Virus record (IMG/VR): IMGVR_UViG_3300036884_000299
Coordinates: 1-64,000 of that record
Origin: a virus
Length of the DNA: 64,000 nucleotides
Strand: one strand, 5' to 3'
A model generated the notes under the pieces. That model was not told where the DNA came from. It searched no databases and saw only the letters and a program-made list of their open reading frames with translations. Below are positions 19,690 to 50,339 of this stretch, piece after piece. The translations under genes and the position numbers were made by a program. Position 1 is the first letter of the stretch. Every line of letters starts with the position of its first letter.

Positions 19690-19718
19690 AGTATACTACA
19701 ACTGAAGATAAATGTCAA
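19690..19718 (-). promoter_or_regulatory. Sigma-70-type promoter
   Basis: Minus strand TTGACA (19718-19713), 17-nt spacer, TATACT (19695-19690), 17 nt before the start of the small membrane protein at 19673. It lies at the very end of the SNSSSSSF operon. Confidence 0.8.
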
Positions 19719-20239
19719 CCTAATAGAAATTCTTTGAATTTTGAATATTTCTCATTATAAGTTTCTTTTATTTCAGAAAGTATTTTAGTTTCATTAAGCC
19801 CTGTTTTTTCGTATACATATTGTATATATTCACTAGGATATAATTTCTTTCTTCTTTTATTTATTTCTTTTACTTTTATAAAAACGTCCTCATGGGTATA
19901 TTGTGGAAATTTTTTACTTAAGTATCTATCAATATCTTTATTAGATGCTACTTCAAATTGACAAATAGGGCAAAATTCCTCGGAAATGCATGAACCAATC
20001 ATATCTACTGCATTACGAATTTCAGATGAATATTCATCAGGATCACCATTATTACCAGTATTATCATAGATAATATATCCTTCTAATGCTTCATCTTCAC
20101 ATATAATATGCTCATTTTGGCATTGTATGAAACCAAAATCTTGGGGGGAAGCATCCATACCCGCTTCTGAAGCTCCACATATATCACAAACAAAGCTTGT
20201 AGTGGAACTATTTGAAACAAAACCTTTACGTATCTTCAT
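19715..20239 (-). CDS. SNSSSSSF-tag protein A, Cys-rich
   Basis: 174 residues. The N-terminus MKIRKGFVSNSSTTSFVCD is the tag shared by four genes in this operon. It is followed by a Cys/His cluster (CDICG near 18-22, CQNEHIIC near 39-46, CPIC near 90-93), suggesting zinc sites, and then a charged helical C-terminus. SD GGAGGA before ATG 20239. The same tag occurs on otherwise unrelated phage and bacterial hypotheticals in my memory; its role is unknown to me. It is the last gene of the operon led by the radical SAM gene. Confidence 0.6.
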   Translation of the reverse strand: MKIRKGFVSNSSTTSFVCDICGASEAGMDASPQDFGFIQCQNEHIICEDEALEGYIIYDNTGNNGDPDEYSSEIRNAVDMIGSCISEEFCPICQFEVASNKDIDRYLSKKFPQYTHEDVFIKVKEINKRRKKLYPSEYIQYVYEKTGLNETKILSEIKETYNEKYSKFKEFLLG

Positions 20240-20424
20240 AAGTCCTCCAATTTAAGTGTAAATTTATACCCACATTCCCCACATTCAATCTCCTCTGATT
20301 CATATCTTATAAAGCCTTTACCATAGTATCTATCATAATAATTAGGATTAGATGTAGAATAAAATTCAATATTAAGGGGAGGAGTTTCATATACATATTT
20401 ACAGGAAGGGCATTGATATTTCAT
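20236..20424 (-). CDS. Small zinc-ribbon protein
   Basis: 62 residues from ATG 20424 (MKYQCPSC). CPSC near residues 5-8 and CGEC near 47-50 give a four-cysteine zinc ribbon around a Tyr-rich insert. The upstream ATG at 20454 lacks a ribosome site, whereas TGGGGGTAAT precedes 20424. It overlaps gene A by ATGA. It belongs to the SNSSSSSF operon but has no tag itself. Confidence 0.55.
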   Translation of the reverse strand: MKYQCPSCKYVYETPPLNIEFYSTSNPNYYDRYYGKGFIRYESEEIECGECGYKFTLKLEDL

Positions 20425-20425
20425 A

Positions 20426-20806
20426 TTACCCCCAATGCTGCCTTTTGATAGCAATTCCTTCTAAAAATTCTTGCACAGGCCATGGAATAGAATTGCTAAA
20501 AGTAGAATCCACAATAATAGCAGGTTTATCAAATTGACCCTTATCTAAATATTTTATTTCCTCATCATAATAGTCATGATTCATACCTTCATAGAATCCC
20601 TTTATTTGATTTAGAAATTCTTGTCCACTTGACCTTTCATAGATTTCACAAATATCATCAACAATAAATTCTTCTTTATCAATAAGAGAAACAGCCTTTA
20701 ATACATTTTCAATTACTTCTCGTATCAATGAAGCTGAATATTTTGTTCCATCTAAAATAAAGGAGGTAGTTGAGGAATTTGATATAAAACCTAATCTAAT
20801 TTTCAT
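20426..20806 (-). CDS. SNSSSSSF-tag protein B
   Basis: 126 residues starting MKIRLGFISNSSTTSFILD. After the tag the body is acidic and helical, with no resemblance to proteins A, C or D. ATG 20806 overlaps the stop of gene C (ATGA), with GGAGAG as SD. That the short N-terminus is kept while the bodies differ is the striking point. Confidence 0.6.
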   Translation of the reverse strand: MKIRLGFISNSSTTSFILDGTKYSASLIREVIENVLKAVSLIDKEEFIVDDICEIYERSSGQEFLNQIKGFYEGMNHDYYDEEIKYLDKGQFDKPAIIVDSTFSNSIPWPVQEFLEGIAIKRQHWG

Positions 20807-21303
20807 CCATTTCTCTCCGCACCAATAACTACTTTACAATCTGTCAATATACCTGTTTCTTCTTTGAAAAGATTGATAATAGATTGCTGTCGTTCAGAAT
20901 AAAAAGATTCTTTTTTGGCGACTTCGTAGTTAAAGTTACCTGTTCCATCCATTTCATTCTCTTCATAAATAAAAGGAGGGCCATCACCTTCATCATTATG
21001 AATTTCTACAATAGCTATTCTCTTATTCCAATAATTATTAAGGCTCTGTGGGACTAATAGTTCAGTATCATTTCCCCCACAAAGAATTCTATTGTCTGCT
21101 TTCATTTCATAAAAAGTATCAAATACGCTAATAATACTATTCCAATCTTCACTCTGATATGTGTTATAATCCTGTGTTCCATCTATTATGATTTTATTCT
21201 TTTTAATATAGGACTTAAAAGAATTTTCGTCCTTAATTATTCCATATCCAATAATAAAAGAACTTGATCTTGAATTTGATACAAATCCTTCCCTACTCTT
21301 CAT
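20803..21303 (-). CDS. SNSSSSSF-tag protein C
   Basis: 166 residues from ATG 21303 (MKSREGFVSNSRSSSFIIG), preceded by GAGGAGGA. An upstream in-frame ATG at 21357 would place 18 unrelated residues before the tag and has no better ribosome site. The tag has one Arg in the Ser run. The body is acidic alpha/beta with 'IAIVEIHNDEGDGPPF'. It overlaps gene D by 11 nt. Confidence 0.6.
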   Translation of the reverse strand: MKSREGFVSNSRSSSFIIGYGIIKDENSFKSYIKKNKIIIDGTQDYNTYQSEDWNSIISVFDTFYEMKADNRILCGGNDTELLVPQSLNNYWNKRIAIVEIHNDEGDGPPFIYEENEMDGTGNFNYEVAKKESFYSERQQSIINLFKEETGILTDCKVVIGAERNG

Positions 21304-21652
21304 AGTATTCCTCCTCAAATATACCTGCCTCTTGAGATGTCCAATTGTCAACTTCAATAGATTTAATTGTATATCCTTTTTTTGCTAAGGAAGAGAAATC
21401 ATCATCAATATTCATATCATATTCACAGGAATACTTAGCTACTTTAAGTAGATAACAATCCTCTGGTAATCCCCTAGTCTTGATTATTTCTTTAGTTTCA
21501 GGCTCCAACTCAAAAAAATCTATACCCTCACTCAAACCATGACCCTCAAACCAAATATCAGTATCATCAATATTTTCTATTGTAACAGATTTACAAACAA
21601 TAATAAATGAAGATGATGAACTGTTAGATACAAAGCCTTCTCTAATTTTCAT
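21293..21652 (-). CDS. SNSSSSSF-tag protein D
   Basis: 119 residues from ATG 21652 (MKIREGFVSNSSSSSFIIV), with AGGGGGA as ribosome site. The longer reading from 21709 is rejected because it puts the tag internally. This is the canonical form of the tag. The body is acidic and ends in a Glu/Tyr-rich tail. First of the tagged proteins downstream of the radical SAM gene. Confidence 0.6.
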   Translation of the reverse strand: MKIREGFVSNSSSSSFIIVCKSVTIENIDDTDIWFEGHGLSEGIDFFELEPETKEIIKTRGLPEDCYLLKVAKYSCEYDMNIDDDFSSLAKKGYTIKSIEVDNWTSQEAGIFEEEYYEE

Positions 21653-21662
21653 TATAATCCCC

Positions 21663-21872
21663 CTATTTATGTAGACCAGAAGCACCCTGTTCCTGTGCCC
21701 ACCGAACAAAATAATAATTGATATTTCTGTATACTTTTAATACAACAGTTTTCCACAATTCATTATCCCATATTTCAGGATTAGGATTTTCTTCTGAAAT
21801 CTTCTGTGCTTGAAGATCTAGTACATCTCTAATCTCAGCAAAGCGACATTCCTCAATAATAATTGCTTTCAT
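21663..21872 (-). CDS. Hypothetical protein between radical SAM and tag genes
   Basis: 69 residues, helical, acidic in the first half, with several Trp (IWDNELWKTV). It overlaps the end of the radical SAM gene by ATGA-type coupling. It lacks the tag. Its small size and position would suit a partner or carrier protein for the enzyme, but no known carrier family (for example RRE) is recognised. Confidence 0.5.
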   Translation of the reverse strand: MKAIIIEECRFAEIRDVLDLQAQKISEENPNPEIWDNELWKTVVLKVYRNINYYFVRWAQEQGASGLHK

Positions 21873-22960
21873 TATCTATCCTTACAATCATTAACATCAT
21901 AGACAAAACATGACCTACACATTCCACTATACTTACAATTACAATTTTTACTTGAATTCAATAGAGTTTTTCTATATTGTATTACTCGTGGATTGAACCA
22001 TACATCTTTAATATAATCCTCTATTGATAAAATGTCAATACCCTCTTTCCACTCTTCAGTTTGTCCTTGTAAAAATGAGCATGGGTAGCCATTGCCATCA
22101 ACATCAATATAAAAAGAGAACAAAGTAGATTCACAATTATCTACTGATTGAATTAGTTTTTCTGCATCTTCTCTATCTGCTACTGCTTTCATGAACATTG
22201 CAGAAGAGCAAGAATCAAAACCAAATTTAACCATATCAGATAAACAAAAATCCACTAAAGTTTTAAACTCTTGAAATGAAGGAGGATGATAATGGGCTTT
22301 AGGGTTTTTATCCTTATATTGTAAGAATACAATAGCGTTCATATTCCGTAGCCGGGGGTCTTCATTCATATCATGGAGAACCTCATGAGCAAAATCTAAA
22401 GTCTCTTTAGCTAGCATAAAATGTATATTTACTTGGTCCATGCCAGTATCAGTATAAAGCTTAATTGCGTTATATGCTGTTTCTTTATTATGCTTGTAAA
22501 CACTTACAGCTACAGCGCCACATAATTCTTTTGTTTTTTTTGCAACTTCTTCAGTAACATCAATACCATTAGTAGTATAATTAGGGATAATATCTCTATC
22601 CCTCGTATATTTTAATATATTCCAAAAGTCAGGATTAGCATCAATATCAGTTATTCCAAAAGCTATTTGAGTTAGAGTAGGAACATTTATTTTTTCAAAA
22701 AGTTTTATATATGTATCTATATCCATATACTCTATAGGAAGATTAGGTTGATTACCCTTATAGCAAAATTGACAGCCGCCCTTGCAACCCCCAGAAGCTA
22801 TTTCAATATCTAGTATTTCTGGACCATAGGGAGAATATAGAGGATCATCACTTATGGTTCTACCCCATCGCATGAAATGTCCTGTTTTCATATTAAAAGT
22901 ATAATTATAATTATTAGACTTATAATATTTCACATTCTTGACTATGGTGCTCATCGCCAT
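21872..22960 (-). CDS. Radical SAM/SPASM enzyme
   Basis: 362 residues. C59, C63 and C66 (GGCKGGCQFCYKG) form the CX3CX2C cluster that binds the SAM-cleaving [4Fe-4S] centre. The C-terminus carries a SPASM-like set: CX12GX4C (NCEST...GNGYPC), then CX1CX5CX2C (NCNCKYSGMCRSC) and a last Cys in NDC. Such enzymes usually modify peptides or proteins (RiPP maturases, anSME). It heads an operon, from the promoter at 22978-23006, that runs through four proteins sharing one N-terminal tag, so the tag is a plausible substrate or recognition site. That link is inference. Confidence 0.8.
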   Translation of the reverse strand: MAMSTIVKNVKYYKSNNYNYTFNMKTGHFMRWGRTISDDPLYSPYGPEILDIEIASGGCKGGCQFCYKGNQPNLPIEYMDIDTYIKLFEKINVPTLTQIAFGITDIDANPDFWNILKYTRDRDIIPNYTTNGIDVTEEVAKKTKELCGAVAVSVYKHNKETAYNAIKLYTDTGMDQVNIHFMLAKETLDFAHEVLHDMNEDPRLRNMNAIVFLQYKDKNPKAHYHPPSFQEFKTLVDFCLSDMVKFGFDSCSSAMFMKAVADREDAEKLIQSVDNCESTLFSFYIDVDGNGYPCSFLQGQTEEWKEGIDILSIEDYIKDVWFNPRVIQYRKTLLNSSKNCNCKYSGMCRSCFVYDVNDCKDR

Positions 22961-22977: not shown

Positions 22978-23006
22978 ACTATACTAAACTTCTAGTGAAT
23001 TGTCAA
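22978..23006 (-). promoter_or_regulatory. Sigma-70-type promoter of the radical SAM/tag operon
   Basis: Minus strand TTGACA (23006-23001), 17-nt spacer, TATAGT (22983-22978), 18 nt before ATG 22960. No terminator is visible before 19715, so seven genes can be read from it. Confidence 0.75.
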
Positions 23007-34307: not shown

Positions 34308-35525
34308 ATGGCGAATAATGATCCTGGCTACTATGTATTGAATTTGTATGGCAAACTTATTCAAAAAGAATTCCCTGGTGTCACTGACTTTGGCATCGCC
34401 TTTCTGGCAGATTCCGAAGATTATGCGGAGGTAATTGAACCTATTGAAGAGGATGTGGGGGTACAACTTAATAAAGATGGAATGTATCCTATTCGTTCGG
34501 GTGTTGAAACGGAAAGCCCCTCTATAACTATCCATGCCCATTTTGATTACAATGATAATCTTCTTGATTCCATTATCCTTTCTGAAGTAAATCGTTGTTT
34601 TATTAAGGGGATGAAGTTTTTAAAAATAATCACTCCTTTATTTGTGGGGGACTCACATGATATTATCCTCGCTCCTAATGATATAATCAAAGATATAATT
34701 TTAGCAGCTAAACAGCTTAAAGACAATAAAATAAACACCGCTATCCATGCACCTCTGATTGATTTGCCTTTAGATATGCTTAAAAAAGATATCCTAGACT
34801 TTCTTATTAATGAGGATTTTGCCAAGTTCTGTAAGCAGTACTCTATCAAACAGAAAAGAGGATTTATTTTTTCCGGTCCCCCTGGGAATGGCAAGACCCT
34901 TTCTTTAGCTTGGTTAAAGTCCCAAGCTATACAAAATAAAATTGAATTTAGAGCGTATAAATCTGCACGAGACTTTTTAGAGAATCAAGAGGGAGATAAT
35001 CAAAATAAGCGAATCCTTGTATTCGAGGAGTTTGATACTTATGTACAAGAACGAAAACACAATGAAGATGATGATAGGGAACAAACCAATTCTAATAATG
35101 TTTTGGGAACCCTATTACAAATCTTAGATGGCATTGAAGATGTATCTAATGCTGTTTTTATCCTTACTACGAACTTTATCTCTACATTTGATTCTGCCTT
35201 GATGCGCCCCGGACGTATTGATAAGGTTATTACCTTTGAGCCTCCTACAGAAGAGAGTCAAAGAAAATTCTTACAAACATATCTTTCCGAGTATACTAAT
35301 CATGGGATGATTTTGATATACTTGAAAAAGAAGAATGCTGCCATCTCTTATGCTATGTTGAAGGCTATTGTAGATAATATTCGTATTCAGGAGTTCTGGC
35401 TACAGCAGGAAAAGATAGAGGATACTCATATTGGGGATGAGGCTATCATGAAAATTATTAATTCTGTACTTGACAATGCCAATAGGGGAAAAGAAGTGAA
35501 GAATACTGAGGAGTCTATACTATGA
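34308..35525 (+). CDS. AAA+ ATPase, likely unfoldase partner of the HslV-like peptidase
   Basis: 405 residues. An N-terminal domain of about 170 residues that I do not recognise is followed by one AAA module: Walker A GPPGNGKT (about 190-197), Walker B ILVFEEFD (about 236-243, Glu in place of the usual first Asp), sensor-1 ILTTNF and the second region of homology with ALMRPGRIDK. This classic-AAA look (Cdc48/FtsH-like) differs from HslU, and no HslU I-domain is visible. It ends in ...ESIL; HslU also ends in -IL, which docks into HslV. It overlaps hslV by ATGA. A partnership is inferred from gene overlap. Confidence 0.7.
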   Translation: MANNDPGYYVLNLYGKLIQKEFPGVTDFGIAFLADSEDYAEVIEPIEEDVGVQLNKDGMYPIRSGVETESPSITIHAHFDYNDNLLDSIILSEVNRCFIKGMKFLKIITPLFVGDSHDIILAPNDIIKDIILAAKQLKDNKINTAIHAPLIDLPLDMLKKDILDFLINEDFAKFCKQYSIKQKRGFIFSGPPGNGKTLSLAWLKSQAIQNKIEFRAYKSARDFLENQEGDNQNKRILVFEEFDTYVQERKHNEDDDREQTNSNNVLGTLLQILDGIEDVSNAVFILTTNFISTFDSALMRPGRIDKVITFEPPTEESQRKFLQTYLSEYTNHGMILIYLKKKNAAISYAMLKAIVDNIRIQEFWLQQEKIEDTHIGDEAIMKIINSVLDNANRGKEVKNTEESIL

Positions 35526-36073
35526 TAAAATTACATGGAACTACAATACTAGCAGTACGCTATAATGGGCGTACCACTATGGCTGCTGATGGACAGGCTA
35601 CTGCTGGAGATATAGTGTTAAAATCTAATGTACGTAAAATCAGGAAGTTCCTTGATGGAAAAATTATAGTAGGCTTTGCTGGTAGTGTAGCTGACGCTAC
35701 CTCACTATTAGATTTCTTTGAAAAGAAAATAAATACTACTAAAAACATGGAACGTGCTGCTGTAGCTTTAGCTAAAGAATGGAGGACAAATAGAATATTT
35801 GGTAAACTAGAAGCAGAATTGCTTTTAGCAGATAAGGATAATATTCTTCTTCTTTCCGGATCAGGAGATGTCATTGAAGCTGAAAATAATAGTCTTGCTA
35901 TTGGCTCTGGAGGACAATATGCTCTAGCTGCTTCAAAAGCATTAATGTATGCTTATAATGCTTTTGATATTCCAGAAAATGCTAGTCTAATTGCACGTAA
36001 ATCTTTAGAAATAGCCTCTGAAATCTGTATTTATACTAATAATAATATTATTGTGGAGGAAGTAATTGGCTAA
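35522..36073 (+). CDS. hslV: HslV/ClpQ-type threonine peptidase
   Basis: 183 residues, matching bacterial HslV along its whole length. A six-residue propeptide ending in LHG precedes TT; with Thr7 as mature Thr1, Asp23 and Lys39 fall at mature positions 17 and 33, the catalytic residues. GFAGSVADA, AKEWRTNR, KLEAELLLADKD, IGSGGQYALAA and ICIYTNNN are all kept. The LHGTTI start resembles ClpQ of Gram-positive bacteria (FHATTI) more than enterobacterial HslV. The enzyme should form a dodecameric chamber gated by an ATPase. It is probably active, as no key residue is missing. Confidence 0.9.
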   Translation: MIKLHGTTILAVRYNGRTTMAADGQATAGDIVLKSNVRKIRKFLDGKIIVGFAGSVADATSLLDFFEKKINTTKNMERAAVALAKEWRTNRIFGKLEAELLLADKDNILLLSGSGDVIEAENNSLAIGSGGQYALAASKALMYAYNAFDIPENASLIARKSLEIASEICIYTNNNIIVEEVIG

Positions 36074-44675: not shown

Positions 44676-44980
44676 ATTATGTTTCCTCTGCTCTTTGCTT
44701 TTGCTATAGCTTCTTGTGCCAATTGATATGCTTTATTAAGCCCCTTATTCCCATCAGTTTTCATTGCCTTTACAAATGCCCTACACGCATCATATAATTC
44801 TATTGAAGCAGCCATCAGATAGGCATTATCCCAACCCTCCTCTGATTTTTCATTATCCACCTCAATACAGACTTCTGCTAATGCCGCCCATTCAGGACTA
44901 TGTATGCCTACATACCCTTCCCTCTGGCCTTCATAGCTATCCCCTACCCACCATTTTCCAACAGTATGTTTATTTTTCAT
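44672..44980 (-). CDS. Hypothetical protein
   Basis: 102 residues from ATG 44980, with GGGAGG upstream; the extra N-terminus from 45040 lies inside the deformylase gene. WWVGDSYEGQREGYVGIHSPEWAALAEVC, then a helical tail (LMAASIELYDACRAFVKAM) typical of small phage proteins of unknown role. Its start overlaps def. Confidence 0.5.
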   Translation of the reverse strand: MKNKHTVGKWWVGDSYEGQREGYVGIHSPEWAALAEVCIEVDNEKSEEGWDNAYLMAASIELYDACRAFVKAMKTDGNKGLNKAYQLAQEAIAKAKSRGNII

Positions 44981-45419
44981 GTTTAACCTCCCAATTATAA
45001 TACTTGATAAATAGAATTCCGTCAAGATGGTCATATTCATGTTGGATTACCCGTGCTAACATACCTGATGCCCACATACCCTGTTTTTTATTTTCCTCGT
45101 CATAATACTCAATCATTATCCCTTCCGGCCTTTCTACAGGAAAATAGATTCCAGGAAAAGACAGACAGCCTTCCTCCATGCTACAAGTCATAGCAGAGAT
45201 AGATGTTATTTTAGGGTTTATGAATATTCTTTTTTTATCTCCCACTACGTCTGTAATAAATAAACGTAGTGAAACTCCTACTTGAGGAGCAGCCAAACCT
45301 ATTCCTCCTTTATCTAAAACTTCAAACATGTCTGATACCAGTTTAGGGATTACAGTAAAGTCTGTAACCTCTTTAGCTTTACGAGTTAGAATTTCATTAC
45401 CAAATGTAAGTATTTCCAT
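44970..45419 (-). CDS. def: Peptide deformylase
   Basis: 149 residues. All three signature motifs are intact: GIGLAAPQ (39-46), EGCLS (83-87) and HEYDH (127-131), giving Cys85, His127 and His131 as metal ligands and Glu128 as base. It removes the formyl group from nascent proteins. It lacks most of the C-terminal extension of bacterial enzymes, as phage deformylases do. ATG 45419 has no SD; ACTAA lies exactly 6 nt upstream. Likely speeds maturation of phage proteins in the infected cell. Confidence 0.9.
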   Translation of the reverse strand: MEILTFGNEILTRKAKEVTDFTVIPKLVSDMFEVLDKGGIGLAAPQVGVSLRLFITDVVGDKKRIFINPKITSISAMTCSMEEGCLSFPGIYFPVERPEGIMIEYYDEENKKQGMWASGMLARVIQHEYDHLDGILFIKYYNWEVKHEK

Positions 45420-48970: not shown

Positions 48971-49207
48971 TTAGTATTTCAAATTCCTTACATACCGCTC
49001 ATTATTATAGTTAGCTTTTCTTTTCCTGCCCATAGAATAGCTATTTTCATACTTGAATGCCCCTGCTATGTATGCACGTAGTTCTATTCCATCCCATTCC
49101 TCAGGGAACTTTTCTATTTCACTAAGGAATGTGTTCCTCATGCTATTGAGGAAATTATTAATAAATAGTTCTTTGTCTTTAACAGTCATATTCAACTCCT
49201 TATTCAT
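48971..49207 (-). CDS. Hypothetical small protein
   Basis: 78 residues, overlapping the end of rtcB by 8 nt. Helical N-terminus, basic Tyr/Asn-rich tail. AAGGAG before ATG 49207. Unknown. Confidence 0.5.
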   Translation of the reverse strand: MNKELNMTVKDKELFINNFLNSMRNTFLSEIEKFPEEWDGIELRAYIAGAFKYENSYSMGRKRKANYNNERYVRNLKY

Positions 49208-50339
49208 TCGCCTTGAAGCTATATACAGGCTTTAAAGTATACTTTATATCTACAGTATCCCCTATCAAATCCTGTATTTCCTCATAAGGCTTATAAGCCA
49301 TTGGGGATTCATCAATAGTATCCTTAGAAACGCATGAAGTCCATATTCCCTTCATTGAATCCTCAAAGTCAGATAATTGTAATGATTTCTTTGCTACCTG
49401 CCTACCCATGATACGACCAGCACCATGAGGAGCACTGAAATTCCAGTCTGGATTGCCCTTTCCCGTGCCTATAATCAATCCATCTCGCATATTCCAAGGA
49501 ATAATCACAGGCTCATTTAGCATAGCTGATATTGCTCCCTTACGGATAATTTCATGGTCAAGATCAATATAGTTATGGACAGACTCAACAGAACGACCAT
49601 CACCATAGACTAAATCCATCTTCTCTTGAATCTGCTGTAATATATACTCTCGATTCTTATGAGCATAAATTTGAGCTATCATCATATCTGTCAAGTATCC
49701 TTGATAGTCCTCATCCTTTAAATACTCCAACCCATTCATGGTACCTTCAGTACCATGAGTTTTAGCCTTCGCTATAGATTGCCAGTAATTGGCAATCTTC
49801 AAACCAAAGTTACGAGAGCCTGAATGAACAGTAAGCCAGAGTAGGCCATCTTGATCCTTATCTACCTCACAAAAATGGTTGCCTCCCCCACTCGATCCTA
49901 GTGAAGCCATAACTCGATTAAAATCCTGATCTTGCTTCTCACATATTTTTCTGACATCATCATAGATGGAAGATTTCTTAAAATCTTTTTGAATCCATTC
50001 ACCACCAGATTGAGAAGTATGTACATTGTGACCTGAAGGTACATAGGTATGAATGATGTCATCAAGTTTCTGGAAATCTATATCCTTTTTTCCTATACAT
50101 ATAGAAGTGATTCCACACCCAATATCAACACCTATTAAATTTACTATTATTTTATTTGTAAGAGTTGCAGTATACCCTATGACACACCCTGCTCCTGCAT
50201 GAACATCTGGCATAATACGAATTTTACTTCCAATAGAAACCTCATTATTTAGAAGAGCATAAATTTGAGATAAAGCTGACTGTTCCACATTATCATTATA
50301 AATGATAGCAGAATTGTATTTTCCACGAATTTCTAACAT
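49200..50339 (-). CDS. rtcB: RNA-splicing ligase RtcB
   Basis: 379 residues. MPDVHAGAGCVIG, GVDIGCGI, GSSGGGNHF, HSGSRNFG, HNYIDLDH and SAPHGAGR supply the metal ligands and the guanylated His of the RtcB family. It joins RNA 2',3'-cyclic phosphate or 3'-phosphate ends to 5'-OH ends, as needed to repair RNAs cut by host anticodon nucleases. ATG 50339 uses an AGGAG lying inside the C-terminal codons of the upstream homing endonuclease. Shorter than many bacterial RtcB proteins but no motif is missing. Confidence 0.9.
   Translation of the reverse strand: MLEIRGKYNSAIIYNDNVEQSALSQIYALLNNEVSIGSKIRIMPDVHAGAGCVIGYTATLTNKIIVNLIGVDIGCGITSICIGKKDIDFQKLDDIIHTYVPSGHNVHTSQSGGEWIQKDFKKSSIYDDVRKICEKQDQDFNRVMASLGSSGGGNHFCEVDKDQDGLLWLTVHSGSRNFGLKIANYWQSIAKAKTHGTEGTMNGLEYLKDEDYQGYLTDMMIAQIYAHKNREYILQQIQEKMDLVYGDGRSVESVHNYIDLDHEIIRKGAISAMLNEPVIIPWNMRDGLIIGTGKGNPDWNFSAPHGAGRIMGRQVAKKSLQLSDFEDSMKGIWTSCVSKDTIDESPMAYKPYEEIQDLIGDTVDIKYTLKPVYSFKANE

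Follow-up and report, generated by a model that had tools for sequence, protein, structure and literature searches.

Structure of the operon

The DNA analysed here (the window) comprises positions 1-64,000 of the IMG/VR virus record IMGVR_UViG_3300036884_000299, which has 86,672 bases, and it contains seven close-packed minus-strand genes, read from 22960 to 19715, that join a radical S-adenosylmethionine (SAM)/SPASM enzyme to four proteins beginning with the same N-terminal tag. The enzyme gene comes first (21872-22960, 362 aa; Pfam Radical_SAM, 9e-9, and SPASM, 1.5e-4; phrog_7293), followed by an open reading frame (ORF) for a 69-aa protein (21663-21872) to which no function was assigned and which has no relative among the enzyme neighbours in 47 representative loci. 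Tag scans and clustering of the protein bodies then identify tagged protein A (21293-21652, 119 aa, tag MKIREGFVSNSSSSSF, body family FAM12), protein B (20803-21303, 166 aa, tag MKSREGFVSNSRSSSF, family FAM5, which also takes in proteins of phages RB43, RB16, and KP15), protein C (20426-20806, 126 aa, tag MKIRLGFISNSSTTSF, family FAM21) and, as the last gene, protein D (19715-20239, 174 aa, tag MKIRKGFVSNSSTTSF, the Cys-rich family FAM3 with 43 members). Between C and D lies an untagged ORF for a small zinc-ribbon-like protein (20236-20424, 62 aa). Gene starts overlap or almost do, and Shine-Dalgarno-like sites precede all seven genes. When the window was scanned in all six frames, exactly four tags appeared, those of A to D.

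ORF, Pfam, and tag scans thus bear out the gene set and the near-overlapping starts reported by the first-pass annotation, as well as its claim that the bodies under the one kept tag are unrelated, for the four fall into four separate families. It had also proposed a single promoter for the operon. A sigma-70-like site, TTGACA-N17-TATAGT, does exist 5' of the enzyme gene (22978-23006, minus strand; identified by consensus match only, 11/12), but promoter-like sites are no commoner in the region than in shuffled sequence (48 vs 45.4, sd 6.8), so that a one-promoter operon is considered plausible.

The enzyme family

In the window enzyme the radical SAM domain (PF04055) scores above its cut-off and carries the cluster motif C59-x3-C63-x2-C66, the three cysteines of which are invariant in the family. 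The SPASM domain (PF13186) scores 22.4 bits against a cut-off of 21.5, and this part keeps GFDSC, CE, and PCSF together with the C-terminal cysteines; some phage enzymes have lost part of the C-terminal cysteine set. None of the curated NCBIfam radical SAM equivalogs (mycofactocin, PqqE, StsB, NirJ, and others) reached its cut-off, the best scores being 26 bits against 380 for the window enzyme and 94 against 265 for the bacterial branch described below; the only NCBIfam model passed, by bacterial members, was the generic SPASM model TIGR04085. PHROGs includes the enzyme (7293) and one tagged family (7397), both as proteins of unknown function, and no Pfam or NCBIfam model covers the tag or the enzyme subfamily. 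In some phages the enzyme gene is interrupted (L013, 9896-10831; L229; G038; G089). A C-terminal intein-like motif (HN|C) falls exactly at the radical SAM cluster cysteine in L013, while in other phages the gene is split in pieces, L229 having an HNH-like ORF nearby.

The tag and the tagged proteins

The 16-residue consensus of the tag is MKIRxGFVSNSSSSSF. The first-pass annotation had described it in the window as MKxRxGF(V/I)SNS(S/R)(S/T)(S/T)SF, and the same tag was found at the N-terminus of 416 distinct complete proteins, mostly of 90-212 aa, which form 97 body families unrelated by phmmer. Of 422 cases, 416 have the tag directly at the start codon and six have it one residue further in, and Shine-Dalgarno-like sites precede 73% of tagged ORFs vs 14% of random ATGs. 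N10 and S11 are invariant, R4 and S12 each occur in 415 of the 416 tags (the sole tag without S12 being that of protein B), and position 16 is always F or Y. As the search patterns fixed R/K/H at position 4, N at 10, and an aromatic residue or Leu at 16, the constancy of G6, F7, S9, S11, S12, and S15 is more telling. Serine codons of the tag alternate between AGY and TCN, so that selection acts on the tag as protein, and all four glycine codons occur. A loose tag pattern had no match in 3.4 Mb of reversed sequence, and this rules out a chance origin.

Structure models predict a disordered tag ahead of a folded body. For a tagged family shared by bacteria and phages, the AlphaFold model built with an alignment (pLDDT 86.6) shows an ordered domain in which a strand starts at residue 13 and a disordered stretch at residues 1-10 (pLDDT 42); the model of protein B was poorer (pLDDT 70.9; about 52 for residues 1-10). 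Fold searches with the models of these two families returned no match at E <= 0.001. The C-terminal residues of tagged families are poor in Lys relative to the remaining ORFs of the loci and enriched in Gly (20 of 97 representatives vs 5% of other ORFs) and Cys (10 of 97 vs 1.8%). An unusually built member, encoded next to a radical SAM gene in a Dehalococcoidia genome (L173, 7380-9491), is a 704-aa tagged protein with a hydrophobic segment right after the tag.

Genomic linkage of enzyme and tag

Relatives of the enzyme in IMG/VR were collected without use of the tag. With the window enzyme as query, ten relatives were found (41-49% identity), and all ten loci contain tagged ORFs, from one to eight each. 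An alignment used as query gave 64 IMG/VR loci: tagged ORFs lie within 10 kb of the enzyme in 54 and within 5 kb in 53, all but one of the 234 tags near the enzyme share its strand, and tags occur somewhere in the record in 61. After clustering at 60% identity, restricted to viral enzymes and leaving out the bacterial enzymes found through the tag, tags are present within 10 kb in 36 of 40 clusters and in the record in 38. Five of the ten loci without a near tag belong to T4-like phages (taken as KP15, RB16, RB43, Lw1, and CfP1), which do carry tags some 20 kb from the enzyme, two of them in RB16. Variant tags are present in L221 and one distant variant tag in L232; none was detected in the records of L198, L211, and L235, among them L211, where the enzyme sits at the end of its contig, and L235, a contig of 10 kb. 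Among the 47 representative loci, no other neighbour family of the enzyme occurred in more than six loci, that one being enzyme fragments. In RB16, the stretch separating the two tagged genes encodes a 739-aa von Willebrand factor A (VWA)-domain protein (L239, 3921-6140, corresponding to RB16 67920-70139).

In the opposite direction, searching with an exact nucleotide pattern of the tag retrieved at least 119 IMG/VR stretches and 32 stretches in GTDB species genomes. At E <= 1e-3, the enzyme family was matched in 59 of 96 tag-bearing viral records, with 41 matches within 5 kb of a tag, 57 on its strand, and a median distance of 1.1 kb; the match rate was 35/43 for records of at least 100 kb and 24/53 for shorter ones. 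Tag-bearing cellular genomes had a match in 28 of 31 cases, and those looked at were mostly on the contig of the tag (the match in G030 is weak, 2.8e-5, and that in G025 lies on another contig).

As a control we used RtcB, another gene of the window (an RtcB-like RNA ligase by by-eye sequence reading, 49200-50339); dUTPase was also tried, and no relatives were found. No tags occurred at 36 RtcB loci. Among 26 records with RtcB, a strict tag was present in one alone, and this record also matches the enzyme strongly; a second, G447, has a weaker match (1.3e-60) and five variant tags. The operon had no match in L240 and L241, which by RtcB are close to the window, in a search made without a positive control, so that this negative carries no weight. 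The first-pass annotation had suggested looking for a radical SAM/SPASM gene near the tag in other genomes and had named the lack of any association beyond the window phage, along with failure of the enzyme to modify a co-expressed tagged protein, as what would speak against it; the association was found from both sides, in many phages and in cellular genomes.

Concerted variation of the tag

In three genomes the tag deviates from the consensus in all copies found: T6 is present in eight of eight tags of G457, D6 and T9 in five of five tags of G447, and S6-L7 in all four tags of L214. Several of these variant-tag proteins belong to families (FAM0, 1, 2, 3, 4, 7, 9, 10, 11, and 12) the other members of which carry G6. 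Over all loci, tags of different families within one record agree at 13.95 of 16 positions vs 13.55 expected, a value reached in none of 300 permutations. Such likeness within genomes is predicted by co-adaptation to one tag-reading factor per genome, and the enzyme is the sole consistently linked candidate for this factor. Gene conversion spreading one tag through a genome is a possible alternative route.

Distribution and the bacterial branch

Judged from the sequences, the pair is present in many phages and in some bacteria and archaea, so the scope given by the first-pass annotation, a phage system, was too narrow. The enzyme and tagged proteins are carried by E. coli phages RB43, RB16, and Lw1. 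A survey of 50,697 phage records gave about 171 with the enzyme, 174 with one tagged family, and 175 with a second, the counts per genus name being equal except for Klebsiella (110, 114, and 115, respectively). Common ancestry accounts for much of this co-occurrence; still, the pair is kept together though about 20 kb apart.

The gene order metallo-beta-lactamase (MBL) protein, protease-NACHT ATPase, a protein of about 140 aa, tagged protein (with GFVTNSSSTSF), radical SAM enzyme, and a protein of about 302 aa is found in Veillonella parvula SKV38, Acetatifactor, and Lachnobacterium. Two further Firmicutes loci contain most or all of this operon. This conserved candidate defence operon is represented by L165 (7996-14694), L166, L169, L174, and L177; in L165, L166, and L169 the protease-NACHT protein has an MBL neighbour. 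Sulfuricurvum has a signal transduction ATPase with numerous domains (STAND) NTPase with SIR2 and HerA instead. The bacterial branch gave PADLOC matches to the Avs2 and Avs1b models. A STAND gene was seen in 8 of 32 tag-bearing genome stretches, the remaining ones being only partly annotated. PADLOC models did not match the tagged protein, the ~136-aa (~140-aa) or the ~302-aa protein of this branch, and the latter two had no Pfam match in L165; PADLOC viperin models match the enzyme weakly, through the common radical SAM domain. As no further strict tag was found in 299 sampled genomes of the Veillonella phylum, the strict bacterial tag is rare there. The defence-island setting suggests that the bacterial branch takes part in phage-host conflict.

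Proposed function and alternatives

Linkage in both directions and the concerted tag variants support the proposal of the first-pass annotation that the tag is a site of modification or recognition, and we infer the chemistry: the enzyme probably modifies the tag. It would be a dedicated maturase recognising the disordered N-terminal tag MK-x-R-x-G-F-V-S-N-S-S-S-S-S-F on several unrelated folded proteins, binding it, and applying 5'-deoxyadenosyl radical chemistry to introduce one modification within it. Since one enzyme is paired with unrelated proteins of the same tag, it probably puts one chemical mark on all of them. From residue conservation, the modified site most likely lies at or around the invariant N10-S11-S12, and oxidation, epimerisation, or a side-chain crosslink are candidate products. 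An F7-S9 cyclophane as the universal product is weakened by the L7 of L214.

Several points weigh against modification of the tag by this enzyme. The putative chemistry is assigned from linkage and sequence, and the Pfam scan of the enzyme gives Radical_SAM and SPASM alone, with no tag-binding domain identified by it, such as the RiPP recognition element (RRE; RiPP, ribosomally synthesised and post-translationally modified peptide). The enzyme went undetected in 37 of the 96 viral records with tags and, among the 43 that reach 100 kb or more, in 8. The tag may thus function without the enzyme or be modified in trans. The samples were drawn from the pattern matches listed and are non-random. 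In pseudo-T-even phages the enzyme and tagged genes are about 20 kb apart. Concerted tag change could also result from any other shared tag-binding partner. Finally, with L at position 7 in each of the four L214 tags, no single F7-dependent chemistry fits all tags.

RiPP enzymes are usually guided to their targets by a leader (PMC8326336), and the tag could accordingly be one, bound by the enzyme while residues of the body are modified; the Gly- and Cys-enriched C-termini of tagged proteins would suit such a role. We consider it unlikely, as the 97 body families have no common core motif, one of them is modelled as an ordered globular domain straight after the tag, no protease or transporter gene recurs beside tagged genes in the 47 representative loci, and invariance is concentrated in the tag. 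Somewhat less probable still is a sorting or packaging signal, the enzyme serving the same proteins in another way. The capsid-targeting sequences of T4 internal proteins are a precedent, and a signal of this kind would be expected to sit strictly at the N-terminus of several unrelated bodies in each genome, as the tag does, but the enzyme is the sole recurring neighbour and the tags also occur in bacterial defence-like operons.

A reading of the tag as a conserved, built-in element of a single ancient fold, with the bodies as diverged homologues and the enzyme linkage as operon inheritance, appears improbable. A beta-strand does begin at residue 13-14 in both models, and some families have a common C-terminal strand followed by G-x-R-x-G/C; against this stand the disorder of residues 1-10 in the better model, the lack of phmmer similarity between body families, the absence of fold matches for two of them, and the concerted changes within genomes, which fold constraints would not lead one to expect. 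A DNA or RNA element, such as a recombination or translation signal, would account for the constant position at gene starts, but it has hardly any credit left given the free exchange of serine codons and the use of all four glycine codons, and a DNA-level element is ruled out by this codon use.

Modification of the tag by the enzyme can be extended to a tag-encoded marking system, in which one radical SAM enzyme would give the N-termini of as many as about eleven unrelated proteins in a phage genome one and the same new modification, enzyme and tag would co-evolve as a code, and bacteria would use the same writer and tag in STAND-based defence operons; we regard the chances of this broader picture as evenly balanced.

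Comparison with known systems

The anaerobic sulfatase-maturating enzyme (anSME), also of the radical SAM/SPASM class, modifies folded proteins at a short linear motif. The likeness lies in a single enzyme of this class, a short linear motif, and substrates that are folded or, here, predicted to be so; the anSME motif, however, is the C/S-x-P-x-R of sulfatases, whereas here a tag at the N-terminus of about 100 mutually unrelated families would take its place. C/S-x-P-x-R does not occur in the tag, and the tagged proteins scanned had no Pfam sulfatase match. In the ternary conflict systems of VWA-MoxR-associated proteins (VMAP), a radical SAM/SPASM gene accompanies a C-terminal FxSxx peptide that is processed (PMC7159879). 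FxsA/FxsB-type and other enzyme-peptide pairs of these systems likewise place a radical SAM/SPASM gene and a partner carrying a motif together in conflict loci centred on an NTPase, as the bacterial branch here adjoins STAND NTPases, but our tag is N-terminal, common to many proteins, and found mostly in phages, and the enzyme stays below the NCBIfam equivalog cut-offs. Triceptide synthases such as MscB form a three-residue cyclophane by a Phe-Ser crosslink (PMC11002830); F7-V8-S9 of the tag has the same aromatic-x-Ser pattern, and F7-x-S9 is present in nearly all tags, although all four L214 tags have L7 and the candidate substrates are not small precursor peptides. They differ from those of RiPP systems in general in being mostly 90-212 aa long, with one family modelled as a folded domain and no recurring protease or transporter. 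The bacterial branch resembles Avs-type systems (AVAST, antiviral ATPases/NTPases of the STAND superfamily; PADLOC Avs1/Avs2) in its neighbours, which are trypsin-NACHT or STAND NTPases together with an MBL protein (LmuA/Avs1a-like), or else SIR2 and HerA. A STAND NTPase with an effector domain, by which AVAST is recognised, was found in the bacterial branch, to which this comparison is confined; the tagged, ~136-aa, and ~302-aa proteins are outside the PADLOC models, and the phage pairs have no recurring STAND neighbour.

No tag-based modification system of this kind was found in Pfam, NCBIfam, or the open PMC papers searched, and a PMC text search found the tag strings in no relevant paper; subscription papers and most preprints lay outside these searches. 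If the proposal is true, phages, bacteria, and archaea share a post-translational modification system in which one 16-residue N-terminal tag marks unrelated proteins for radical chemistry, and tag and enzyme could be transplanted as a protein-engineering tool if the proposal holds. It would then offer a way into some 100 protein families so far uncharacterised and tie genes of phages to candidate immune operons of bacteria, and it is testable at once in the classical E. coli phages RB43, RB16, and Lw1.

Elsewhere in the window, by-eye sequence reading points to an HslV-like protease (35522-36073) and a peptide deformylase (44970-45419).

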